Position numbers and translations under genes: made by a program
The notes under the pieces: generated by a model
Told to the model about the DNA's origin: nothing
Seen by the model: the letters and a program-made list of their open reading frames with translations, nothing else
Database searches by the model: none
Origin: Candidatus Krumholzibacteriota bacterium
Lineage (GTDB): Bacteria; Krumholzibacteriota; Krumholzibacteriia; Krumholzibacteriales; Krumholzibacteriaceae
Assembly (NCBI GenBank): GCA_016932415.1
Contig: JAFGCX010000006.1
Location: forward strand, 3,071-67,070
Direction of reading: 5' to 3'
Length of the DNA stretch: 64,000 nt
Part shown: positions 24,448 to 37,001 of the stretch, piece by piece
Layout: each line of letters begins with the position of its first letter
How positions within the stretch are numbered: position 1 is the first letter of the stretch

Positions 24448-26073
24448 TCAGATCTCCCTTACATTGATATCGACAGTCCCGAAACTGAAACGGTAACTGC
24501 CCGCGTTGCGGATCGGCCTGTCATCCAGCTCCGACGGATCGAACTTTCTTCCTCTCCTGAGAAGGTAGTATATAAGCTGGTCATCCCTGTAGCCGATCTG
24601 TTTGATATCGTAGTTAGTCCTGATGTAATCCATGACCGGCTGGTCCTTTTTCAACCATTCACTGTCGTACAACAGTATCCACTCGAAATTATGCTCGAAC
24701 TCGGCGGAGATTATCTTTTTGTAATCGTTCGGAAGAAGATTCCCCCTTTTCCCAGATGCCCACAACGTTCCGTAGAGCTGCGTCCTGTAGCCATCGAATC
24801 TATTGTCTGACGGAGAGGCGAATGATATAAATACCCTGCCATCCTCGCTTCCATGATCCCTTATATATTCGCCAGCTATGTCGCTGCCAAGCGCCAGGAC
24901 ATCAAAATGCCTGTAATACCGGTTCCTCAGCGAAGGAACAGCGGCAAGGATCAGGATTATGACGACGATCGTCTTTACATGTTTCCTTTTCATCAGGTCG
25001 GTCAGCGAAGCCGCTTCGACGACGCCTGCCGCCGCGGCAAGACATACAGCTGGAAGAAAAGGCATATGGTAATAGCTGTGCCTCGTGGCGAAATCTGACA
25101 GAATGACGAAATAAACGGGCGCGGCGGCCACAGCGCCGAGAATATATCGAGCCATCTTCGTCCGGGAGTTCATCAGGCTCCATAACAGGCCGACGCAGGC
25201 GAAAGAGAAATAAATATACGTATAATTATCGCCGACGTGCTCCCAGATCACCGGCAGCACTGCATTCCAGAACGATAATGAGAAAGCCTGCGGCAGAAAG
25301 ATCCTTTCAAGAGGAAAGAGATCGTCGGAATAGACGAGAGTCAGGCGGGTAATCACCAACCACGCCGCGACGACGATCGCGCCTGCCGCCGGCCATACTG
25401 TCTGCCTCGCAATTTTTCTCCTCTCTACCCTGTCGCCAAGGACCGCCCAGGGAAAGAGAAAAAACAGCGGCAGGACCAGGATGAGAAAAGTCCCCTTCAC
25501 CAGCGCGACCGCGCACAGAGCGACAGAGAATACAACAAGATCCCTCCCTCTGAACGAACTGATCCATCTGAGGAAGAAGAGAGTCGCGAGAAGAAGGAAA
25601 AACAAAGCGGGCGCGTCCGGCTGGATATTTCTTCCGAAAAAGACCGGGAGGGGCATGATTGCCATAAAGAATGCCGTCAGCATCGCCGTACCATCATCGG
25701 CCTCGAGCTCCCTCGCTACCAGCCAGGAAAGCACTGCCGACGCGAGCGAGAAGACGATCACGACCAGCCTGGCGATCCACAGATGGACCCCGAAAAAACT
25801 CCATATAGCGTAGTAGATCAACGGCAGAAAAGGAAACTGGGGGAAAGATTCCATATACCCTTCACCTCTCGACGTCCCCGAGTAGAGGACTCTCTTGTGG
25901 AGAAGATCTCCATGGTCGAGATACCCTTTCGCCACGGACAGGTAATGGACCTCTTTCATCGAATGATACCCGATAGGTGGATAATCGATATGGTACGCCC
26001 TGAGCAGAAATCCAGCGAGTACGATCGCGCAGAGGATAATAATGACAAGAACGCCTGGTCTGTTTCTTTTCAT
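24448..26073 (-). CDS. GT-C (ArnT/PMT-like) membrane glycosyltransferase
   Basis: 541 residues with about ten membrane helices, starting with VLVIIILCAIVLAGFLLRAY. The first periplasmic loop reads YPPIGYHSMKEVHYLSVAKGYLDHGD, in the place where ArnT/PMT enzymes have the catalytic DE..Y...A..m...gd; here the acidic residue is the Glu of KEVHY. Helices such as RLVVIVFSLASAVLSWLVARELE and NIQPDAPALFFLLLATLFFL (typical N.QPD/E of the family) follow. The C-terminus (about 380-541) is a soluble domain. Such enzymes transfer sugars from polyprenyl phosphate to lipid A, proteins or polysaccharide outside the inner membrane. It stands alone between two operons; the acceptor is unknown. Confidence 0.75.
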   Translation of the reverse strand: MKRNRPGVLVIIILCAIVLAGFLLRAYHIDYPPIGYHSMKEVHYLSVAKGYLDHGDLLHKRVLYSGTSRGEGYMESFPQFPFLPLIYYAIWSFFGVHLWIARLVVIVFSLASAVLSWLVARELEADDGTAMLTAFFMAIMPLPVFFGRNIQPDAPALFFLLLATLFFLRWISSFRGRDLVVFSVALCAVALVKGTFLILVLPLFFLFPWAVLGDRVERRKIARQTVWPAAGAIVVAAWLVITRLTLVYSDDLFPLERIFLPQAFSLSFWNAVLPVIWEHVGDNYTYIYFSFACVGLLWSLMNSRTKMARYILGAVAAAPVYFVILSDFATRHSYYHMPFLPAVCLAAAAGVVEAASLTDLMKRKHVKTIVVIILILAAVPSLRNRYYRHFDVLALGSDIAGEYIRDHGSEDGRVFISFASPSDNRFDGYRTQLYGTLWASGKRGNLLPNDYKKIISAEFEHNFEWILLYDSEWLKKDQPVMDYIRTNYDIKQIGYRDDQLIYYLLRRGRKFDPSELDDRPIRNAGSYRFSFGTVDINVREI

Positions 26074-26173: not shown

Positions 26174-27529
26174 TCAACCGTCGATGATCCGGGCGAGCCT
26201 TTCGAGCGATATTCCAAGTTCGCCGGCTGCCAGATCCCTGTCGCCTCCAAAATGCTGAAGCGTCACAAGTACATGATCCCTTATCACCGAATCGAGTTTC
26301 CTCGATACATAAGGTTCCTCGTCAGCCGTATCGACCGGTTCGATCCTGCCTTTGATGTAGCTCGACATCGCTTCGACCTGGATGATGTCAGATACTTCGT
26401 TGGCAACGGCGGTCTCAATTATCGTCCTCAGATCCTGTACGTTATTGGGAAAGTCATAGTTTTCAAGGACTTCGAGAAAATCATCCGAGAATCCCTTTAT
26501 ATCCTTTCCTGTCCTTTCGACCTCTTCTTCGAGAAAGACCTGCGCGAGCACCGGGATATCGGCTGCCCGCTCCCTTAAGGAAGGGATCCTTATCGAATTG
26601 ACCATAAGGTGGTAAAGGAGATCCCTGGAGAAGGTGTCCTTGTACTCGATCCTGGTGAGATCATGCGTCGAAGATACTATAAGGCGCACGTCGGCGTTCC
26701 TTATCCTGGTCGAGTTCTCCTGGTAATACTCACCCTTCTGGATCAGGCGCTTGAGCCTGACCTGCATCGGCAGGGTCAACTGGTCAATATTATTTAAAAA
26801 TACCGTTCCATGATCGGCCCTGTCAATGAGCCCGGGGTTCTCCTTCTGTGAACCGCTCCAGTCTCCCGCCTGGCCGAAAAAGAACGATGGCAACGTCTCG
26901 GGATCGAGGCTGTCCGCGTCGAGGGCGGCGAAAAGTTTACCGCTTCTCGGGCTGGCCTGATGAATCGCCCTTGCCAGAGTTTCTTTTCCAGTTCCGCTCT
27001 CGCCCCATATAAATATACTCAGATCGCTGAGCGCTACTTTTTCGGCATGGTGAAAGAGCCTAATCATGCCCGGATCCTTCGTCTTGAACGGTTCAAAAGC
27101 CGCTTCGTGGGTCAGGCTCTCCCTTGTCAGCTTTGGAGGAAGGTCGCCGATCGTCTTTTCGATAACGCTCTGTTCGATCGCCCGGTCGAGGACTTCGAGA
27201 AGCTTGTCGTCCTCAACCGGTTTGATGAGATAATCGAAAGCTCCCAGTTTCATCGCTTTCACGGCAAGGTCAACGTCGCTTACTCCGGTGAGTATGATGA
27301 CGGGGGTGTTGTCACCCTTTCCCCTCATTGTTCTGAGTATGTCCATGCCGCTTACGCCTGGCATATCCATATCGAGGATAACGACATCGAACCTGTTTTT
27401 GTCCAGAAGCGCTTCGACTTCAATCGAATTATTTATGATGGTAGGATTGAAAAGATCCGTCTGCACGAGAAAGACCATAAGATAATTGGTCACAGCTACG
27501 TCATCATCGACTATCAGTATCTCTTTCAA
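26174..27529 (-). CDS. NtrC-like response regulator with degenerate AAA+ domain
   Basis: 451 residues: receiver (Asp53 in VILDMDMPG, Lys103 in LIKPVE), a linker, an AAA+ domain (about 150-385) and a Fis-type HTH (GGDRDLAAGELGISLERLARI). The AAA+ part has a normal Walker A (GESGTGKE, 176-183) and an arginine near FSRDLLY. However, Walker B reads GTVFLNNID where GTLFLDEI is expected, with both acidic residues replaced by Asn246 and Asn247. The sigma-54 contact loop GAFTGA reads GDWSGS (222-227). So ATP hydrolysis and sigma-54 activation look impaired, while nucleotide and DNA binding may remain. It overlaps the kinase gene by ATGA, so it is probably the partner of that kinase and the last gene of the redox operon. 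Confidence 0.85.
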   Translation of the reverse strand: MKEILIVDDDVAVTNYLMVFLVQTDLFNPTIINNSIEVEALLDKNRFDVVILDMDMPGVSGMDILRTMRGKGDNTPVIILTGVSDVDLAVKAMKLGAFDYLIKPVEDDKLLEVLDRAIEQSVIEKTIGDLPPKLTRESLTHEAAFEPFKTKDPGMIRLFHHAEKVALSDLSIFIWGESGTGKETLARAIHQASPRSGKLFAALDADSLDPETLPSFFFGQAGDWSGSQKENPGLIDRADHGTVFLNNIDQLTLPMQVRLKRLIQKGEYYQENSTRIRNADVRLIVSSTHDLTRIEYKDTFSRDLLYHLMVNSIRIPSLRERAADIPVLAQVFLEEEVERTGKDIKGFSDDFLEVLENYDFPNNVQDLRTIIETAVANEVSDIIQVEAMSSYIKGRIEPVDTADEEPYVSRKLDSVIRDHVLVTLQHFGGDRDLAAGELGISLERLARIIDG

Positions 27530-29514
27530 TTCTTCCCTTTCGCGTTTCCTCCATGTTCTTTCGCCGCCGGCAGTTTGATCGAGAAGGTAGTTCCCTCGCC
27601 AGGTCGGCTTTTGACGGAGATTATCCCGCCATGCTCCTCTACAATCCGGAATACTATCGGCAGCCCGAGCCCCGTCCCGCCCCGAGCCCTTTTGGTCGTG
27701 AAAAACGGATCGAATATCTGCTTGAGGGTGCTCTCATTCATTCCCAGTCCGTCATCGATCACATCTATGTGAATAAAACCATCCTGCAGAGAAGTCCTCA
27801 CGGTCACCGTACCCTTGACGTCATCATGCATCGCGTCGCCCGCGTTGACGATAAGGTTTACCAGCACCTGTTCGATCTTCTGTGAGTTTCCCGTAAAGGT
27901 CGGAATATTTTCAGCAAGATCGAGCTTGATATCGGCCCTCTTGTTTACCTGGTTGTGGACGAGCCTCGCGCTCGCCTCTATGATAGTGTTGATATCGACC
28001 TTGTCGACCAGCAACCCCTCGTCCTTGCGGACAAAAGTCCGAAGTCCCTCGACGATCCCCTTTATCCTGTCAGAACCATGGGCCATATCATCCACGAGAG
28101 TCATGATATGCTCCCTGAAGAAATCGTATTTGAGTCTCGCTATCTTCAGGTCCTGGTGCGCCGCCTGATACTGATCGACTATCGGCAGCATATCCTCCAG
28201 AGCCTGTTTAATTATCTTGATATTACCCCTGATAAACTGGTTCGGATTGTTTATCTCGTGCCCGATACCGCTGACCAGCTGACCCAGCGATGCGAGTTTG
28301 TCCGCCTGCTGAAGTTGCTGGTCGTACGTCTTCTCAAGTGTGATGTCCCTGTAGAATTCAAGTATGCCGTCGACCTCATGCTCCTGGTCGTAGACGGGGA
28401 GCGCCTGGACATGAGTATATTTCTCCCCCTGCTTCATCGTAAGCGTCAGCGGTCTTTTTTCCCGGAGGATTCTCGCGAGCCGGCAATCCTCGCACGGTTT
28501 GTCCCTGTCGAAGAACTCCTTGTAGCAGAATTCTCCTGGCTCGACATTCTCCCTGTTCGTCATCACTATCCGGTGCATCTTGTCTATCAATACTACGTCA
28601 TCGGGTATCGCCTCGAAAATAGTCTCAAGTCTGCCTCTCGCTTCTTCCCATCCGCCCCTTACGCGATCGAGATAGGAGTTTACGATCTTAAGATTATTTT
28701 TCTGTTCCTCTATTTCCTCTGTCCTTTCGGCGATCTCCCTTTTGAGCTCGGCAAGCCGGGCGTTGTAATCGGCCTCTTCCTCCTGCTTGAGTGTAAGCCT
28801 GTTCTTCAGCGCTTTCCTTTCAAGGGCGACATTGAGCATCCTGCCGATCTCATCGAGCATCTTCTGTTCTTCGGGAAGCAGTTTGAATGTATTATCAAGA
28901 TATCCCGCCCGGATCTCCCCCTTTTGAGTACTGCCCGTCCACAATTTCACAGATATATAATTATCCTCGCTCGGCTTCTGACCATATTCTACGTCCTGGT
29001 ATTCCGAATAGATGATTATCTCTTCCGGATGGAGCATCCCCGGGCCAAGGACCCTCGGCAGCCTGTTAAAGAATTCTTCTATCGAAGAAGTGACCTCTAT
29101 AAGTTCAGATACATTGTAGATGCAGGCCAGTTCCTTGATCCTTTCGTCCTTTTCCCACTCTTCCTGGTTCTTGCGGCCGAGAAGGCGGCTTCCGAAAAAG
29201 ATATATATCTCTCCTTCGTCGGTATTCAACAATCCAGCCTTCAGGGGTATCGAGACGGGTTTCTCTCCCTTCGGCGAGAAGATCGCTATCCCCCTCCCGT
29301 TTGAACGGACCTGCCTGATAGCCGATCCAAACGTCATGAACGATGATTTATCCAGTATATCGGGAAGCCTTTTGTTTATTACGGAGAGAAACAGTGGGAA
29401 ACACTCCGCGAGAAGTACCTCGCTTATATGTATGATCCTGTCTTCGCCATCGACTACCATCAGGTAATCAAAGTTACCCTCCATGAAGTTTATAAGGTCC
29501 TTCGATTGAAACAT
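27526..29514 (-). CDS. PAS-domain histidine kinase, putative redox sensor
   Basis: 662 residues from the ATG at 29514, chosen for GGAGAG 8 bases upstream. No membrane segment. An N-terminal PAS-like domain (LINFMEGNFDYLMVVDGEDR) is followed by a GAF-like region (about 110-225), a long coiled coil (about 235-290), and a second PAS (IFEAIPDDVVLIDKMHRIV) that carries Cys residues in FCYKEFFDRDKPCEDCRL, a CxxC-containing loop seen in other PAS domains that could bind metal or react with thiols. The kinase core has His419 (GIGHEINNP), N box (IEQVLVNLIVNAGDAM), DDGLGM, FDPFFTTK and GGTGLGLPI. It is 63 bases downstream of the NuoG-like gene and overlaps the regulator gene by 4 bases. Probably senses redox or metabolic state connected with the oxidoreductase. 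Confidence 0.85.
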   Translation of the reverse strand: MFQSKDLINFMEGNFDYLMVVDGEDRIIHISEVLLAECFPLFLSVINKRLPDILDKSSFMTFGSAIRQVRSNGRGIAIFSPKGEKPVSIPLKAGLLNTDEGEIYIFFGSRLLGRKNQEEWEKDERIKELACIYNVSELIEVTSSIEEFFNRLPRVLGPGMLHPEEIIIYSEYQDVEYGQKPSEDNYISVKLWTGSTQKGEIRAGYLDNTFKLLPEEQKMLDEIGRMLNVALERKALKNRLTLKQEEEADYNARLAELKREIAERTEEIEEQKNNLKIVNSYLDRVRGGWEEARGRLETIFEAIPDDVVLIDKMHRIVMTNRENVEPGEFCYKEFFDRDKPCEDCRLARILREKRPLTLTMKQGEKYTHVQALPVYDQEHEVDGILEFYRDITLEKTYDQQLQQADKLASLGQLVSGIGHEINNPNQFIRGNIKIIKQALEDMLPIVDQYQAAHQDLKIARLKYDFFREHIMTLVDDMAHGSDRIKGIVEGLRTFVRKDEGLLVDKVDINTIIEASARLVHNQVNKRADIKLDLAENIPTFTGNSQKIEQVLVNLIVNAGDAMHDDVKGTVTVRTSLQDGFIHIDVIDDGLGMNESTLKQIFDPFFTTKRARGGTGLGLPIVFRIVEEHGGIISVKSRPGEGTTFSIKLPAAKEHGGNAKGKN

Positions 29515-29577
29515 GCGCGCAACTCTCCAGTTTGTACAGTCGGTGATCACGGCCAGAGCTCTATCGAAAACCAGAGA

Positions 29578-32500
29578 TCAGATCTTGACCCGGAACCTCT
29601 CCGTGCCTACCTCCCTGACTTCCTTCTTGTAGCGGGCGCCATGAGTCAGGGGCGGAAGAATAACGACCTTTTTCAATTCCCGGTCGACGGGAACAAGTCG
29701 CAAACCGTTGATCTGTGACTTTTTCTCGCCAGTGTTCCAGTAATACGGTTTCATACTTCCAAGAGATTCTTTTACCAGTTCATCGATCTCGATTCCGATC
29801 TCTTTCTTTATCGAGATCCCGAACTCTCCGGCCAGGGTTGACAGGATATCGATCCCCGATGATCCTGAAGGCGGTCTGACAGCCTGGGAATATTCCACCA
29901 GGTTGCCCAGGTAATCGCACCTGTGACCTGAGGTCTCGAGATATGTCGATCCTGGAAGGACAACATCGGCATATTCGACCGTCTCCGTCGCTGTCCAATC
30001 CATCGCCGCGAGAAATTCGATATTATGGAACCATGCCGCCGTCTGATTCCATGCCAGAGGATCCTCACCGATGACCAGGGCGGCTTTGAGCTCTCCCTTT
30101 TCCAGAAGGCCGAGAAGCTCCTCCCTGCAATGAGTCTTCGAAAGCGAAGGTTCGATCCTCTTTCTGCCAGGCATGAAAGCAGGATCAGCTCCGAGGACTT
30201 CAAGGGCGGCGCTGTTCGAAATGATCCGTGGAAGCAGAAGATCCGCCTTTTTACCGGCCGACCTGAGAAGCACGACAAGATTGGCCAGAGCTTCCATATC
30301 GCCGGAAGACTGGTCCTGCTGCCTGTCGGGGCTGTGGATGATCACCACGTTATTAGCCGTCGTAATGATCGTAGTGATCTTTTTTATAGTCTCCGTGTCG
30401 ACTCCCGTCAACTCGGCGACCGTATGGGGGTCAAAATCCATCGAATCGAGGAACTCTTTCGATCCGGGGATACTGTCAAGGCTACCCCCGCCGATTAGAC
30501 CGTCATCGAGCATCTGCTGGATTATCCCGTTAAACAGTACCGATGATCTTCCACGCATCGGATCGATCGTCTGTTCGGCAAGAAGCTGGTCAGTCGTGTC
30601 GAGTGTCGAATTGGAGACGATCAGTTTCGCTCCCTTGCGGACAGCCTCAATGACATCTACAGCCAGGATCAGGTGGTCCGATTCCAGGGAAGTATTGTTA
30701 CAGATGATAAGATCGGCGTCGCCGATGCAGCCGCTGTCGGCTGTCGACGCGGTAAAACCGAAAGACCGGTCGAGGACTCCGTCAGGCCTGTTACTGCCAA
30801 GCACCGACAGGGAAGATATATTACCGGTCCCGATTCCTTCTCTCGCGATCCTTCCGGCGAGATATATCTCCTCGTTAGTCAATTCTGGCGACACGAAGAC
30901 TCCCGTCTTGTCGGCGCCGTATTTCTCCGCGGCTTTCCTCATCCCGCTTACTATCTTTCCGGCCGCCTCCTCGATGGTGACTCTATCGGGGCTCTCCCCT
31001 TTTCTGACGCGCGGCGCGGTTATCCTTCCCTTTTTGATGAACAGTTCATGTCCAAAACGGCCGTACCTGCAGAGATAATCGCCGGCTTTCCCCGATGGTT
31101 CTATATAATATCTTGTGTCGCTCACTTTGCGCACTTTAATGGGACAGGCCAGCGAACAGAATCCGCAATGAGTCTCGACCGTGTCGGATTCCAGAGCTGC
31201 CCGACCGTTGAAGGGATATTTGACCGTAAGAGCGCCGGTAGGACATGAATCGACGCAGTTGCCGCAACTGACGCAACTCGTTTCGACCAGAGGATCGTTC
31301 ATCGCCGGCCTGACTTCAGTCTTGAAACCACGGCCGACAAGCCCTATCGCCGAGATCGGGAGGACTCTGGCGCAGGTCCTTATGCAACGGGCGCATAGAA
31401 CACATTTATTCGGATCGTATATGATATATGGATGGCGTTCATCGACCTTGTGCTTTCTCACCTGTCCCTTGAACCTCTCCATATCTACACCGTATTCCTC
31501 GCCGTAGAGCCGAAGGTCGCAGTCGTAATATCTTACGCAGCCGCAAGAGAGGCATCTATCGCATTCATGCGTATTGTCCTCGAATTCAAATCCAGTGGCG
31601 ACCTCGTCAAGATTACCCTTTCTTGATTCGACATCGCTCATATGCACTTCGTGTCGCGGACTCTCCTTGATATCACCCAGTTCGAGTCTTCCAGGTTTGC
31701 TCCAGAATTCTTTCCTTACGATAAACGGTTTTCGCGCCATCTCCTCTCCGCGCAGGAAAGCGTCGATAGCCTTTGCAGCCCTCTGCCCGTCCCTTACAGC
31801 GTCGATCACGACGGTTGGTCCGTCATCAGCATTATCGCCGCCGGCGAAGAGTCCTTCTATGTTAGTCTTCATCGTCTCATTATCTGTGACTACGGTATTC
31901 CATTTCGTAAGCTCGAGTTCCCTGCCGGCGACTGTCGAGACGCCATCAAGGACCGGAGCCTGTCCGATCGCGGAGATCGCGGTCTGACATGGGAGATCGA
32001 ACTCTGAACCCTCCATCGGGACCGGTCTGCGCCGCCCCGATTCATCCGGTTCCCCAAGTTTCATCCTCAGGCATCTGAGCGCTTTCAATTTCCCGTTTTC
32101 GGAGATTATCCCGACTGGAGCGGCAAGCTCCATGATCTCTATGCTTTCTTCCAGGCACTCCTCGATCTCCATCCTGTCAGCCGGCATCTCATCCCTGGTC
32201 CTGCGATAGAGGACAATCACCTTGTCTGCGCCTAGCCTCCAGGATAGCCTGGCGACATCCATCGCTGTGTTACCGCCACCCACGACGACGATAGTGCCGG
32301 TGATAGGCTGCGGATCTTCATTCATCCTGGGCAGGAATTCAGCACCCGTCTCTATCCCTTCCGTCTCGAATTCTCCCTCGACCCTCATCGGCTTTCCGGC
32401 CCACGCTCCCGTTCCCAGGAAAACGGCGTCATGCTTTTTCATCAGCTCATCGATGCTGATATCTGACCCTACGGAAGTATTGTACCTGATCTCTCCGCCT

Positions 32501-33264
32501 GCCTTGAGGATATGAGCGACCTCCGCGTCGATGACATCATCGGGGAGTCTGTAGACCGGTATCCCGTAGCGCAGCATGCCGCCCGATCTCGGCTGGGCTT
32601 CGTAAATGACAGGTTTGTGGCCCTTCTTCCCAAGGAACCATGCCGCGGTAAGACCGGCGGGGCCCGCGCCGACGATCCCGACGCTTTTCCCCGTTTCCGC
32701 CTCACGCTCCGGCTGTCCGTCATAGACTCCAGGCTGATCGGTCACGAATCTTTTTATGGCGTTTATTCCAACTGCTGCGTCGATGTCGATCCTGCGGCAG
32801 ACCACTTCGCATTTCCTGACGCAGACTCTCCCGCAGATGGCGGGAAGAGGGTTCGTCTCCCGGATCAGATCGACTGCCCTGGCGTACTGCCCCATCGCGG
32901 AAAGGGCTATGTACCCCTGGGCATCCACTCCCGCGGGGCATCCTTCCATGCATGGAGAGACGCAGTCAGCGTAATGATTGGAAAGAAGCAGTTCGAGAGC
33001 GGTCTTTCTCGAAGCGATCACCCGTTCGTTCCTTGTCTCGATCTCCATCCCCGGCGAGATCCTCGTGGCGCATGCCGGGACAAGATTGTTTCTTCCCTTG
33101 ACCTCGACAACGCACAGAAAACACGATCCGTAAGGTTCAAGCTCCTCCGAATGGCAAAGAGTGGGAATGTCATCGATCTGATATTCCCTGACTACTTCCA
33201 GGATCGTCTTGCCAGGAACGGCTTCGACCTCCCGGCCATTGATAATTATCCTGATCTTTTCCAC
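29578..33264 (-). CDS. NuoG/formate-dehydrogenase-like iron-sulfur protein with inserted NfnB/GltD-like flavoprotein module
   Basis: 1228 residues from a GTG start with AAGGGAAGG upstream. In order: an N-terminal [2Fe-2S] domain (Cys37, 48, 51, 65); a GltD/NfnB-like module with Cys101, 105, 109 and Cys144, 148, 152, 156, an FAD loop GIVGAGPAGL (196-205), a second dinucleotide loop VGGGNTAMD (328-336) and AIGQAP; a Cys-rich link (568-582); two [4Fe-4S] ferredoxin clusters (Cys621, 624, 627, 631 and Cys664, 667, 670, 674); and a molybdopterin-oxidoreductase-like domain with its own cluster (Cys700, 703, 707, 732). The Cys or Sec that ligates Mo/W in formate dehydrogenase is not seen, so this looks like NuoG rather than an active formate dehydrogenase. 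With NuoE and NuoF it should pass electrons between NAD(H), probably NADP(H) or ferredoxin, and another carrier. Confidence 0.85.
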   Translation of the reverse strand: MEKIRIIINGREVEAVPGKTILEVVREYQIDDIPTLCHSEELEPYGSCFLCVVEVKGRNNLVPACATRISPGMEIETRNERVIASRKTALELLLSNHYADCVSPCMEGCPAGVDAQGYIALSAMGQYARAVDLIRETNPLPAICGRVCVRKCEVVCRRIDIDAAVGINAIKRFVTDQPGVYDGQPEREAETGKSVGIVGAGPAGLTAAWFLGKKGHKPVIYEAQPRSGGMLRYGIPVYRLPDDVIDAEVAHILKAGGEIRYNTSVGSDISIDELMKKHDAVFLGTGAWAGKPMRVEGEFETEGIETGAEFLPRMNEDPQPITGTIVVVGGGNTAMDVARLSWRLGADKVIVLYRRTRDEMPADRMEIEECLEESIEIMELAAPVGIISENGKLKALRCLRMKLGEPDESGRRRPVPMEGSEFDLPCQTAISAIGQAPVLDGVSTVAGRELELTKWNTVVTDNETMKTNIEGLFAGGDNADDGPTVVIDAVRDGQRAAKAIDAFLRGEEMARKPFIVRKEFWSKPGRLELGDIKESPRHEVHMSDVESRKGNLDEVATGFEFEDNTHECDRCLSCGCVRYYDCDLRLYGEEYGVDMERFKGQVRKHKVDERHPYIIYDPNKCVLCARCIRTCARVLPISAIGLVGRGFKTEVRPAMNDPLVETSCVSCGNCVDSCPTGALTVKYPFNGRAALESDTVETHCGFCSLACPIKVRKVSDTRYYIEPSGKAGDYLCRYGRFGHELFIKKGRITAPRVRKGESPDRVTIEEAAGKIVSGMRKAAEKYGADKTGVFVSPELTNEEIYLAGRIAREGIGTGNISSLSVLGSNRPDGVLDRSFGFTASTADSGCIGDADLIICNNTSLESDHLILAVDVIEAVRKGAKLIVSNSTLDTTDQLLAEQTIDPMRGRSSVLFNGIIQQMLDDGLIGGGSLDSIPGSKEFLDSMDFDPHTVAELTGVDTETIKKITTIITTANNVVIIHSPDRQQDQSSGDMEALANLVVLLRSAGKKADLLLPRIISNSAALEVLGADPAFMPGRKRIEPSLSKTHCREELLGLLEKGELKAALVIGEDPLAWNQTAAWFHNIEFLAAMDWTATETVEYADVVLPGSTYLETSGHRCDYLGNLVEYSQAVRPPSGSSGIDILSTLAGEFGISIKKEIGIEIDELVKESLGSMKPYYWNTGEKKSQINGLRLVPVDRELKKVVILPPLTHGARYKKEVREVGTERFRVKI

Positions 33265-33275
33265 GAGACCTTCCC

Positions 33276-35054
33276 TTATTCCTTGTAAACAGCGTCAAAG
33301 TTACAACTGGTTATGCATTTTCCGCATTTGACACAGATCGATCCGTCGATGACATGGACCTCTTTGGACTTTCCGGTGATCGCGTCGACCGGACAATTTT
33401 TTGCGCAGATGGTGCATCCGGTGCACTTGTCCGGATCGATCATGAAATCGACCAGGGCCGAGCAACTTGCTGCCGGACATTTTTTATCATTGATGTGTGC
33501 TTCATACTCATCGCGGTAATATCTTATCGTCGAAAGGACCGGATTGGGCGCCGTCTGACCGAGGCCGCACAGGCTCGCCTCCTTGATCTGTTCTCCGAGG
33601 ACAAGCAGTTTGTCTATATCTTCCGGTTCGCCTTCACCCTTTGTGATCCTCGTCAGTATCTCCAGCATCCTGAGCGTACCGATCCTGCAGAAAGTGCATT
33701 TTCCGCATGATTCTTCCTGAGTGAACTCGAGGAAAAATCTTGCTATCTCGACCATGCAGGTCCTGTCATCAAGAACGACCATCCCGCCTGATCCCATGAT
33801 CGCCCCCGTTGCCGGGATCGATTCAAAGTCAACCGGAGTATAGTCAAGATGGGCCGGGATACATCCCCCCGACGGGCCGCCCATCTGAACAGCCTTGAAT
33901 TTTCGCCCGTCCTTGATCCCTCCTCCGATATTGAAAACGAGATCATGGATCGAGGTTCCCATCGGGACCTCGGCGAGACCTCCGCGGACTACTTTTCCCG
34001 CCAGGGCAAAGACCTTCGTCCCCCTGCTCTTTTCCGTTCCGAACGCCGCGTAGGCGCTGGCTCCGTTATCTATGATCCATGGCACATTGGCATATGTCTC
34101 CACGTTATTGTTATTCGTCGGTTTCGCCCACAACCCCTTCTCCGCGGGAAAGGGAGGCCTTATCCTCGGCATCCCCCTCTGGCCTTCTATCGAGGCGAAA
34201 AGAGCCGTCTCCTCGCCGCAAACGAAAGCTCCGGCTCCCTGTTTGATCTCTATATCGAATGAAAACCCTGATTGGAGGATATCCTTACCGAGATATCCCT
34301 TTTCCCTTGCCGCCCCGATCGCGATATTCAGCCTGCGGATGGCGAGAGGATATTCCGCCCTGCAGTAGATAAATCCCCTGGACGCGCCTATCGCCTTTCC
34401 GCATATCACCATCCCCTCGAGCACTGAGTGCGGGTCACCCTCAAGGACCGACCGGTCCATAAAAGCCCCCGGGTCCCCTTCATCGGCGTTACAGACTACA
34501 TATTTAATATCTGACTTGTAACCGGCGGCAAAAGACCATTTCAATCCGGTGGGGAACCCCGCCCCTCCGCGCCCCCTCAATCCCGATTCCTTGATCACGG
34601 CGATTATCTCTTCCGGCGTCATCGATCGGAGGGCTTTGCGGACTGATTCGTATCCCCGCTTCGCTTCATATTCGCTTATTGATTCGGGGTCGATCGTCCC
34701 GCAGTTTCTGAGCACGATCTTATCCTGCGGGGAATAGAATTCGGTTTCCGATCCCTCGACGGCAGATCCTTTGCCAAGCCTGAGGGCGATATGTTCCTCA
34801 AGGAGTTCACCTTTTATTATATGTCTCTCATAGATCTCATCGACCAGTTCGGGAGTGACCTCTCCGTAAAGTACCCTTTCTTCCCCCTCCCTTATCTCGA
34901 CGAGAGGCTCTCTGTAGCACATCCCGATGCAACTCGTCTGGGCAAGCTCGAACTTTCCCGGAGCGTCTGAGAGCAGTTCATTGAACCTGTCATACGTCTG
35001 CCGGGCTCCCGCGGACAGGCCGCACGTGCCCATCCCCACGATCACTTTCTTCAT
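33276..35054 (-). CDS. NuoF/HydB-like NADH-binding flavoprotein subunit
   Basis: 592 residues, ATG with GGAG upstream. It has a thioredoxin-like ferredoxin domain at the N-terminus (Cys11, Cys42, Cys46 in GTCGLSAGA and SCIGMCYREP). Next comes the NuoF core with the FMN/NADH glycine-rich loop GLRGRGGAGFPTGLKW, GEETALFASIEGQRG and the cluster motif ESCGKCTFCRIGT. Two [4Fe-4S] motifs (DKCTGCTICAKNCP and CVKCGKCITSCN) lie at the C-terminus. This three-part layout is that of HydB/HndC and other bifurcating-type NuoF subunits, and is longer than respiratory NuoF (about 430-450). It accepts or donates electrons as NADH. It is 11 bases before the NuoG-like gene and 66 after NuoE. Confidence 0.9.
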   Translation of the reverse strand: MKKVIVGMGTCGLSAGARQTYDRFNELLSDAPGKFELAQTSCIGMCYREPLVEIREGEERVLYGEVTPELVDEIYERHIIKGELLEEHIALRLGKGSAVEGSETEFYSPQDKIVLRNCGTIDPESISEYEAKRGYESVRKALRSMTPEEIIAVIKESGLRGRGGAGFPTGLKWSFAAGYKSDIKYVVCNADEGDPGAFMDRSVLEGDPHSVLEGMVICGKAIGASRGFIYCRAEYPLAIRRLNIAIGAAREKGYLGKDILQSGFSFDIEIKQGAGAFVCGEETALFASIEGQRGMPRIRPPFPAEKGLWAKPTNNNNVETYANVPWIIDNGASAYAAFGTEKSRGTKVFALAGKVVRGGLAEVPMGTSIHDLVFNIGGGIKDGRKFKAVQMGGPSGGCIPAHLDYTPVDFESIPATGAIMGSGGMVVLDDRTCMVEIARFFLEFTQEESCGKCTFCRIGTLRMLEILTRITKGEGEPEDIDKLLVLGEQIKEASLCGLGQTAPNPVLSTIRYYRDEYEAHINDKKCPAASCSALVDFMIDPDKCTGCTICAKNCPVDAITGKSKEVHVIDGSICVKCGKCITSCNFDAVYKE

Positions 35055-35120
35055 TTACTGACTCCATGATTTTGTAGAAGATGCACCAGTCCACCTCGAA
35101 TATATCCTCTGCCGGTGCGA

Positions 35121-35621
35121 TCACGCTGCCGATTCATCGCCCCGGGGTGATTTTTCCCTGCGCTTGTAGCTTCTCAGCAATTTTCTCAACGAGGCGGGGG
35201 TCAGTCGCCCGTGAGTATCGTCATTGATCATGATCACCGGAGCGAGCGAACAGCAACCGATGCAGGCAACGGTATTAAGGGTAAACAAGCCGTCACCGGT
35301 AGTGCCACCCACTTCTATCCCGAGCTCGTCCTCGATTGTCTCGATTATCATCTTCGAGTTTGACACGTGACACGCTGTCCCGGCGCACGCCTTGATCACG
35401 TACTTGCCCATCGGCTGCAGTCTGAACTGGCTGTAAAAGGTGATCACTCCGTATATCTCCGACTCGGGGATACCTGTCACGCCGGAGATATAACTTATCG
35501 CCTTGCGCGGAATATATCCGAAATGATCCTGGGCCGATTGAAGCAACGGAATTAGCTCTCCCGGTTCCCCATCATAGCGCCACAGGCGGTAACTGAAATT
35601 ATCTTCTCTCTGTCCAGTCAA
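35121..35621 (-). CDS. NuoE/HydC-like [2Fe-2S] thioredoxin-like subunit
   Basis: About 166 residues from a TTG at 35621 with GAGGG 6 bases upstream; a longer frame would overlap the regulator gene before it. The helical N-terminus (GELIPLLQSAQDHFGYIP) and SGVTGIPESEIYGVITFYSQF are typical of NuoE. The [2Fe-2S] ligands are Cys in CAGTACHV and in CIGCCSLAP. It forms the NADH-oxidising module with the NuoF-like protein. Encoded 19 bases after the receiver-RAM regulator. Confidence 0.88.
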   Translation of the reverse strand: MTGQREDNFSYRLWRYDGEPGELIPLLQSAQDHFGYIPRKAISYISGVTGIPESEIYGVITFYSQFRLQPMGKYVIKACAGTACHVSNSKMIIETIEDELGIEVGGTTGDGLFTLNTVACIGCCSLAPVIMINDDTHGRLTPASLRKLLRSYKRREKSPRGDESAA

Positions 35622-35640
35622 TTTGATCCCTCTGTCCTGT

Positions 35641-36627
35641 CTACTCGACCAGCTTGATGATCTTCGCTTCACGCACCCTGAGGACTCCGTCTATCTCGCT
35701 CAGTTTCGCTATGACTTTCGGCGTCCTGCCCATCGACCCGCCCGTGATCATACCGACAAGTTTCGAACCGTCTTCGATCACATCGCAGAAGACCACTTCA
35801 TCGATAAAGAATACCGTCGTGAAAATCTGCTGGATCGCGTTCTTGTCTATATCCACGATGATATAGCTCGTCGTACCCGGTTGTTTTCCCGACGTCACCT
35901 GGCCGGGCTGCTTTACCGCGTCAGAATATATCTTTACGAATTCATCGATATCCCTGTCGAGTTTGGGCCTTTCGACTTCAGCGAGAGAGGCGACCTCGAT
36001 CCCTTCGATCCTGCCGATCTTCTCGTGAAGCGCCTTGATCTTTTCAACGGAAGTGGTCTGAAGAAGCACTATTATATCGAATTCTCCCCTTACCGCTTCA
36101 CATCGCTGGACGCCCTCCATCTGGTAGAGTTCATTGAAGATCTCCATGCTTCTGTCCGGATCGGTTATCCTTATCGTCAGGTAAGCGCTCATCGACTCGC
36201 GCATATCCGGTTCGATCTCTTCGGCAGTACCGGCGTTTCCCGCGTCGGTCGAACCGGGAGAGAGTTCTTCGAGGGCTTCGACAAGATCAGGTATCTCGAA
36301 CGGTTTGTTTAGATAACCTGTATTCTCCTCGGAAAGGGCGGTCGCCTCAAGAGATTCATCTCCAAACCCCGTTATAACGAGAACGGGGAGTTCGGGATAC
36401 TGGATCTTGATCACCTTGAGGATCTTCAGTCCGTCTATATCAGGCATGAAGATATCGGTTACCAGATAATCATATGTTATTCCCTTGTCCCTGGAAGAGT
36501 TAAGCTCATGAATGGCTGAGATCCCGTCAGGGCATGTGACTACGCTGAATCCTTCCTGCGTCAGGCCTACGGTCAGGTTCCGTCTGATCTCGGCCTCATC
36601 ATCGATTACTAGTACCCGGCCTTTCAA
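35641..36627 (-). CDS. Response regulator fused to two RAM (AsnC ligand-binding) domains
   Basis: 328 residues from a TTG with GGGAGG 6 bases upstream. Residues 1-120 are a receiver domain (DDE at 9-11, Asp58 in LVTDIFMP, LNKPFE). After a linker, two Lrp/AsnC-type ligand domains follow: one at about 160-235 (AYLTIRITDPDRSMEIFNEL, VRGEFDIIVLLQT) and one at about 250-328 (SYIIVDIDKN, GMITGGSMGRTPKVIAKL). No HTH is seen, so it does not bind DNA in the usual way. RAM domains bind amino acids or other small ligands. As the first gene of the operon, next to the promoter, it may couple phosphorylation and metabolite binding to the oxidoreductase or to the kinase at the end of the operon. Confidence 0.8.
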   Translation of the reverse strand: MKGRVLVIDDEAEIRRNLTVGLTQEGFSVVTCPDGISAIHELNSSRDKGITYDYLVTDIFMPDIDGLKILKVIKIQYPELPVLVITGFGDESLEATALSEENTGYLNKPFEIPDLVEALEELSPGSTDAGNAGTAEEIEPDMRESMSAYLTIRITDPDRSMEIFNELYQMEGVQRCEAVRGEFDIIVLLQTTSVEKIKALHEKIGRIEGIEVASLAEVERPKLDRDIDEFVKIYSDAVKQPGQVTSGKQPGTTSYIIVDIDKNAIQQIFTTVFFIDEVVFCDVIEDGSKLVGMITGGSMGRTPKVIAKLSEIDGVLRVREAKIIKLVE

Positions 36628-36700
36628 TTGTACCCTCCCATTCTAGAAAACGCTCCGGCAGCAAACTTTTGATACTGCTTGAGTAATGATATTTATTTTC

Positions 36701-36719
36701 ACCTGTTAACAATACAGGT
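36701..36719. promoter_or_regulatory. Inverted repeat over the -10 of the redox operon, putative operator
   Basis: ACCTGT (36701-36706) and ACAGGT (36714-36719) form a perfect 6-base inverted repeat with 7 bases between. It covers the -10 box of the promoter, so a bound protein would repress. The regulator is not known. Confidence 0.5.
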
Positions 36720-36737
36720 CATAATATCTGTTGTCAA
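36709..36737 (-). promoter_or_regulatory. Promoter of the redox operon
   Basis: On the minus strand, TTGACA (36737-36732) and TATTGT (36714-36709) are separated by 17 bases. The -35 is perfect and the -10 matches four of six. It is about 80 bases upstream of the TTG start of the receiver-RAM gene and should drive all six genes down to 26174. Confidence 0.65.
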
Positions 36738-37001
36738 ATTATTTCGATATATCTGAATAAGTAAATTACACCTTATCGTAATTTAAATCTTTTCACCAGG
36801 TTACATCATTATTAATACCGGCTTCCGCTACGAAAAACCCCGGTGTCGGCTGGGATTCGCGCCGCCGGGTCGGAAAAAGATCGAACATCACTTCTCATCG
36901 GGATTAATCGCCTCATCGAGGTGCTCATCATCTCTTGACTGGCGCGGCACAAACTGATAATTTGGATCGACTTCTATCGATTCCTTTAAAAGGTGCCGAA
37001 A
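36738..37001. other. Divergent intergenic region before yidD
   Basis: 264 bases between the redox-operon promoter and the YidD gene. It is AT-rich in its first third and GC-rich after 36830. No gene, no clear plus-strand promoter and no strong hairpin were seen. Confidence 0.3.

Follow-up and report, generated by a model that had tools for sequence, protein, structure and literature searches.

Electron-bifurcating transhydrogenases set the balance of NADH, NADPH and ferredoxin in anaerobes, and their regulation is hardly covered in the literature that we searched. Among them, the Sporomusa-type enzyme, StnABC (Nfn-Bfu Type 1; structure 8OH5), is known from work on Sporomusa ovata and Thermococcus sibiricus (PMC7483475, PMC10482914, PMC9304861), and in S. 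ovata its genes are located between metVF and pabAB, with no kinase or receiver mentioned (PMC7483475). The HydABC and NiFe-HydABCSL hydrogenases share the Bfu core but employ another third substrate. Going by extracts of PMC9304861 and PMC11406978, some of their clusters hold kinase- or PAS-bearing genes (hisK, BfuT), the sensor being a hydrogenase-like protein or the product of a lone hisK gene, so that kinase-linked bifurcating enzymes have precedents; those extracts mention no receiver-RAM or NtrC-like partner. Here we examine a six-gene block in a 64,000-nucleotide stretch of contig JAFGCX010000006.1 (hereinafter, the window) from a metagenome-assembled genome (MAG) of Candidatus Krumholzibacteriota (about 3.1 Mb, 95% complete). 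Unlike the S. ovata cluster, this block combines the three Stn subunits with both a kinase and receivers: a receiver protein with two RAM domains (RR-RAM), NuoE (StnA), NuoF (StnB), a NuoG-like protein with a GltD/NfnB module (StnC), a histidine kinase and an NtrC-like protein that we call pseudo-NtrC (Table 1).

Judging from these sequences, it is reasonably probable that a dedicated two-component circuit controls the Stn-type bifurcating transhydrogenase from one conserved cassette. In such a circuit, the soluble kinase would sense the cellular redox state through a PAS-GAF-PAS sensor and would hand phosphate to two receivers, pseudo-NtrC and RR-RAM, giving one arm that acts on expression (kinase to pseudo-NtrC) and, possibly, a second that acts at the level of the enzyme (kinase to RR-RAM). 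What is new is the linkage of Stn to receiver-RAM and pseudo-NtrC signalling genes, the enzyme itself being already known. Thus, of the undescribed system proposed in the initial annotation, the enzyme proved to be a published type (Stn/Nfn-Bfu), whereas the linkage stands, given that no description of an Stn- or Bfu-linked two-component system was found in the open-licence literature, which is not proof of absence. If the circuit is real, a dedicated sensor and two receivers retained next to the enzyme across many uncultured phyla would make transhydrogenase regulation testable with expressed proteins, the gene order would serve as a marker for Stn-dependent metabolism in MAGs, and the block would provide a clear case of NtrC-type proteins that dropped sigma54 function yet kept phospho-signalling.

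The Stn-type enzyme

Re-reading of the open reading frames recovered all six genes on the minus strand, separated, with the chosen starts, by 19, 66, 11, 63 and −4 bases, i.e. the same order, coordinates and spacing as initially annotated; the domain calls made at that stage were likewise reproduced with Pfam and NCBIfam, which were used for all domain assignments. By domain content and structure matches, the NuoE, NuoF and NuoG/GltD-like proteins make up an electron-bifurcating transhydrogenase of the known Sporomusa type (StnABC, Nfn-Bfu). The HydABC/Bfu-type enzyme with an NfnB-like module envisaged from the outset is borne out by the domains and by the matches to 8OH5 and 9BOV, which extend over the full length of StnB and most of StnC. 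StnB comprises an N-terminal thioredoxin-like [2Fe-2S] domain, an FMN and NAD(H) site and a C-terminal 2[4Fe-4S] domain. StnC (1228 amino acids), with the same domain order as in S. ovata, consists of a NuoG-like arm, an inserted GltD/NfnB NADPH-FAD module and an FdhF-like tail; its nearest solved structures are chain A of 9BOV and, next, S. ovata StnC.

Across 20 loci, the cluster cysteines of StnC are invariant, and so are K171 and R239, the equivalents of S. ovata K170 at cluster C7 and R239 near FAD that have been probed by mutation (PMC10482914). In 18 of the 20 loci, in contrast, the position of S. ovata StnC C114 holds Ala, Val or Ile. Because of the structure matches and the retention of the mutated-residue equivalents, we file the enzyme under Stn/Nfn-Bfu; as such, it is predicted to couple NADPH, ferredoxin and NAD+ by reversible electron bifurcation. 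Formate dehydrogenase and hydrogenase are ruled out by domain content: Pfam found no H-cluster domain (Fe_hyd_lg_C) in StnC, the test for a HydABC hydrogenase, and no PyrK-like NfnA subunit next to NfnB in the operon, the test for NfnAB. The genome also encodes Rnf and a separate NfnAB pair on another contig (G000:C16:83650-85950; L194 1650-3948; G and L numbers are our labels for genomes and loci), and Stn is therefore not the sole route between these carriers. In acetogens, Stn and Nfn are reported to be almost mutually exclusive, whereas this genome has both.

Conservation and inheritance of the gene block

The window locus was compared with 20 loci of relatives and 80 named loci; the RR-RAM of one relative (JAFGBF010000012, Candidatus Krumholzibacteriota) is 89% identical to that in the window. 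As far as the contigs reach, and with rare breaks, the order RR-RAM, NuoE, NuoF, StnC is fixed. The full order, with the kinase and NtrC-like genes following StnC, recurs in MAGs bearing about 13 phylum labels, including Krumholzibacteriota, Fermentibacterota, Eiseniibacteriota, Latescibacterota, Acidobacteriota, Elusimicrobiota, Planctomycetota, Spirochaetota and Fibrobacterota (these are the depositors' labels, and labels of MAGs can be wrong). With the order found again in tens of other genomes, the block is not a product of chance, nor is it confined to this contig, which by the initial annotation would have counted against it.

Among the 44 informative loci, i.e. those in which the contig extends far enough past StnC, the kinase gene directly follows StnC in 27, lies at a short distance in two and is convergent in one; in 14, almost all of them Fermentibacteria, there is no kinase within the fetched flank. 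A whole-genome search identified a kinase orthologue in 10 of 11 such or gapped genomes, most of the 11 being Fermentibacteria. In each of these ten, the NtrC-like gene adjoins the kinase gene; in nine, both lie 3 to about 25 kb downstream of StnC, sharing its strand and contig, and in G106 they occupy a different contig. The genes between StnC and the displaced pair are transposase-like, ABC-transporter and other unrelated genes. Thus, the kinase and NtrC-like genes travel as a pair, and RR-RAM remains with the enzyme genes. In a Phycisphaerae-labelled MAG (L135 8022-11290), the kinase gene and the NtrC-like gene face the Stn genes in convergent orientation and so must be transcribed separately there. 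In Candidatus Sabulitectum silens (G105; L117, L190), NuoF, StnC and the kinase are each in several broken frames, by sequencing error or decay.

In a survey of 80 genomes of the phylum to which the window belongs, RR-RAM and this StnC clade were found together in 32. Four genomes are discordant, two with StnC and no RR-RAM (G014, G067) and two with RR-RAM and no StnC (G004, G063); these are fragmented bins in which, to judge from the coordinates, the match lies near a contig end. The RR-RAM match in G047 is a distant stand-alone homologue, and the lower-scoring StnC-like proteins of other genera (about 700-1060 bits) occur without RR-RAM. A distant receiver-RAM-RAM protein that is 32-33% identical stands alone at L058 3114-4118, and no StnC was found in that bin. 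Over 21 complete loci, the distances of the six proteins correlate for all pairs (r from 0.51 to 0.91; none of 999 permutations as high), most closely for StnC and kinase (r = 0.91), RR-RAM and StnC (r = 0.89) and RR-RAM and kinase (r = 0.87). By this measure, all six have been inherited together. Of the 35 genomes that carry the cassette, 25 lack haem-copper oxidase (COX1) and ten encode it, compared to 4 lacking it among the 45 genomes without the cassette (Fisher p = 6e-9, with no correction for kinship); the enrichment in genomes lacking this oxidase is consistent with anaerobic life.

On the tree, the 'Krumholzibacteriota' label needs several changes, and one group with this label (L097, L107, L110, L112) nests among Fermentibacteria on a well-supported branch. 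Fermentibacteria and this group share an extra GltD/NfnB-like gene, 35-43% identical to the middle part of StnC, immediately before RR-RAM and co-directional with it (L071, L073, L076, L080, L082-L085, L087, L088, L091-L094, L097, L098, L099, L103, L107, L110, L112-L114, L117, L124, L134). Given the nested branch and the shared extra gene, these data suggest that the cassette was transferred as a block.

Shared descent or block transfer, then, explains part of the distribution, as would be expected if the neighbourhood carried no functional meaning, chance or joint transfer having kept the transhydrogenase operon together with a generic pair of NtrB/NtrC-like genes. The location of the Sporomusa Stn genes between metVF and pabAB (PMC7483475) points the same way, in that the regulators are therefore not needed for the enzyme chemistry. 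We nevertheless disfavour this explanation and consider it improbable: the order is kept at protein identities down to about 50% and across many phylum labels, with near-complete co-occurrence, and the phosphorylation sites are kept while other portions of the NtrC-like protein decay.

Signalling proteins and promoter

The kinase has weak, below cut-off Pfam matches to PAS_4 and HisKA along with HATPase_c. In the AlphaFold model, the domains run in the order PAS (residues about 16-120), GAF-like (about 131-245), long coil, PAS (about 301-402), DHp and CA, the PAS-GAF-PAS assignment being based on the order of secondary structure in the model; Foldseek with the whole model gave weak matches (TM-score about 0.2) to phytochrome-type PAS-GAF proteins. 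This sensor arrangement is unique within the genome. The protein looks cytosolic, no membrane segment being seen on inspection of the sequence (no prediction program was applied). Across 19 sequences, the phospho-acceptor H431 and four cysteines are invariant (numbering from the GTG at 29550), namely C143 in the GAF-like domain and C342-x10-C353-x2-C356 in the second PAS, in agreement with the CxxC loop recognised in the initial annotation; the latter motif is also present in the kinases of Fermentibacteria. The invariant motif of the second PAS would most likely be the sensing site, perhaps as an Fe-S or metal site or as a thiol switch.

The phospho-Asp and Lys are retained by every copy of both receivers, and the Thr by all copies except one. 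In RR-RAM, D9, D10, D58, T86 and K108 are invariant (44 of 44 sequences), and in the NtrC-like protein, D9/D10, D53, T/S81 and K103 are kept (21 of 21). Hence, the phospho-His of the kinase and the phospho-Asp, Thr/Ser and Lys of both receivers expected of a two-component system are all in place. Outside its receiver, the NtrC-like protein is degenerate, as was noted from the start: in the window copy, the GAFTGA motif reads GDWSGS, Walker A is intact, Walker B reads FLNNID and the C-terminal helix-turn-helix (HTH) is shortened. GAFTGA is absent from all aligned copies (23, plus 10 of the Fermentibacteria type), Walker B is lost in most (the Asp is replaced by Asn in 12 of 21 copies), some retain both Walker motifs, and some lack the HTH. 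Identity decreases along the protein, from 65% in the receiver through 58% in AAA+ and 46% in the lid to 36% at the C-terminus. At L042 4890-6009 (= L064 19161-20280), the NtrC-like match is limited to the receiver (residues 1-106) and is followed by a GltD-like frame, either because the protein has been reduced to its receiver in nature or because of an assembly error.

As in the NtrB/NtrC family (AtoSC, ZraSR), a PAS kinase adjoins a receiver-AAA+ protein, and the best NCBIfam scores of the pair are to AtoS and AtoC, all far below cut-off. Unlike in this family, the NtrC-like protein has lost GAFTGA and often Walker B, its HTH is shortened and the operon lacks a sigma54 promoter. With these losses, it probably does not work as a normal sigma54 activator. 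It could be supposed that it still activates sigma54 promoters elsewhere, with Stn as one passenger of that regulon, in line with the presence of sigma54 in the genome and the retention of Walker A and B in some copies; in view of the absence of GAFTGA from every aligned copy, the loss of Walker B in the window copy and the truncated HTH in several, this is very improbable. Sigma54 control of the operon itself was ruled out: upstream of about 70 RR-RAM genes, no −24/−12 site stands out above shuffled background.

The promoter is, instead, sigma70-like; in the window it marks the start of the block and coincides with the end of the initially annotated interval (36737), and −35/−10 pairs stand at comparable positions in most other loci. 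Stem-loop-like sequences before RR-RAM in Fermentibacteria, considered as a possible leader RNA, turned out on alignment to be such promoters, and the window gave no match to any Rfam family. Just ahead of the −35 box in 12 aligned Krumholzibacteriota-type loci is a near-palindromic element with the consensus TTTTCAGATATAnCGAAA, conserved at 0.96 bits per column, compared to 0.17 in the flank and 0.39 in the spacer. This element is a candidate site for autoregulation, and pseudo-NtrC probably feeds back on the sigma70 promoter, possibly by binding here; alternatively, it may be a phosphate-loaded partner of the kinase. A wider regulon marked by the element was ruled out for this genome, as the other copies with up to two mismatches lie inside coding sequence.

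RR-RAM has no HTH or other DNA-binding domain by Pfam or in the AlphaFold model, in which the receiver is followed by two beta-alpha-beta-beta-alpha-beta units (146-219 and 253-324); as a test for an Lrp/AsnC regulator, the RAM domain is present and the HTH is absent. The RAM call is based on Pfam, predicted secondary structure and the two AsnC/RAM stretches that Pfam finds in the distant L058 homologue; among the matches listed by Foldseek and VIA-align, only the receiver half found counterparts, and the RAM pair was not placed. Mean pairwise identity is 77% for the receiver, 56% for RAM1 and 68% for RAM2. Lacking a DNA-binding domain and remaining by the enzyme genes where the kinase pair has moved off, RR-RAM probably uses its two RAM domains to act on the enzyme or on its assembly. 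A more specific version, which we put forward only tentatively, is that RR-RAM is a phosphorylation-gated regulatory subunit through which the kinase sets the direction or rate of bifurcation post-translationally.

The circuit could also be purely transcriptional, with the kinase and pseudo-NtrC running the operon promoter, and perhaps others, and RR-RAM tuning or draining the kinase, the enzyme remaining untouched. The precedent is FixT, a stand-alone single-domain receiver that inhibits its kinase, FixL; like RR-RAM, it has no DNA-binding domain, and, as proposed for RR-RAM, it belongs to a redox or oxygen circuit (PMC7078487). The invariable adjacency of the kinase and NtrC-like genes (overlapping by 4 bp in the window) and the conserved element by the −35 box fit this scheme as well. 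Nonetheless, when the two halves separate, RR-RAM keeps with the enzyme genes rather than the kinase; moreover, the two RAM domains, which FixT lacks, exceed the needs of a phosphate sink, and RR-RAM, unlike FixT, belongs to an enzyme operon. We regard this alternative as rather unlikely.

Several observations weigh against a dedicated circuit acting from one cassette. In most Fermentibacteria, the kinase and pseudo-NtrC genes are kilobases away from the enzyme genes, so a shared transcript is not required. Shared inheritance can also reflect long co-residence of physically linked genes, and the link to missing COX1 is confounded by phylogeny. Walker B and HTH have decayed to different extents in different lineages and the loop frequently resembles RDWSGA, and some NtrC-like copies might for this reason still be weak activators. 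Finally, an UP element or the site of an unrelated regulator could account for the palindrome-like sequence, and the cysteine motif of the kinase may be structural.

Feature coordinates and neighbouring genes

Table 1 Coordinates of the six genes and upstream elements in the window.
Feature	Position	Strand	Evidence and remarks
Near-palindromic element ATTCAGATATATCGAAA, candidate regulator site	36742..36758	-	Directly upstream of −35 box; conserved in 12 aligned loci
Sigma70-like promoter TTGACA-17-TATTGT	36709..36737	-	110 nt before RR-RAM
RR-RAM, receiver + two RAM/ferredoxin-fold domains	35641..36627	-	Pfam Response_reg 2e-23, AsnC_trans_reg 6.5e-7; AlphaFold model
NuoE = StnA / BfuC, NuoE-like [2Fe-2S] subunit	35121..35621	-	PF01257 (2Fe-2S_thioredx) 3e-50; start TTG, alternative GTG at 35672
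NuoF = StnB / BfuB, bifurcating core	33276..35054	-	Complex1_51K + NADH_4Fe-4S + Fer4; full-length 8oh5_B match, E=4e-254
StnC / BfuA, NuoG-like with GltD/NfnB module	29578..33264	-	Fer2_4 + Fer4_20 + Pyr_redox_2 + Fer4_Nqo3 + Molybdopterin; 9bov_A E=4e-231, 8oh5_C E=5e-219
Histidine kinase, PAS-GAF-coil-PAS(CxxC)-DHp-CA, cytosolic-looking	27526..29514	-	Pfam, NCBIfam, AlphaFold domain layout; start ATG, GTG in frame at 29550
Pseudo-NtrC (NtrC-like)	26174..27529	-	Response_reg + Sigma54_activat

About 100 nt downstream of the block, on the same strand, lies a gene for a PMT_2-type glycosyltransferase (window 24448-26073), with possible read-through. The same kind of gene is also located downstream of the block in a genome of the same genus and was not seen there in the other loci. 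Outside the window, the genome encodes an apparently split aldehyde:ferredoxin oxidoreductase (G000:C30:52300-57500; L192 2301-7501), the halves of which are fused to different Bfu-like subunits: an AFOR_N-NuoE-NuoF protein of 1067 amino acids and an adjoining Fer2-Fer4-AFOR_C protein of 666 amino acids. Of the related genomes searched, eleven carry near-full-length copies of the 1067-amino-acid fusion.

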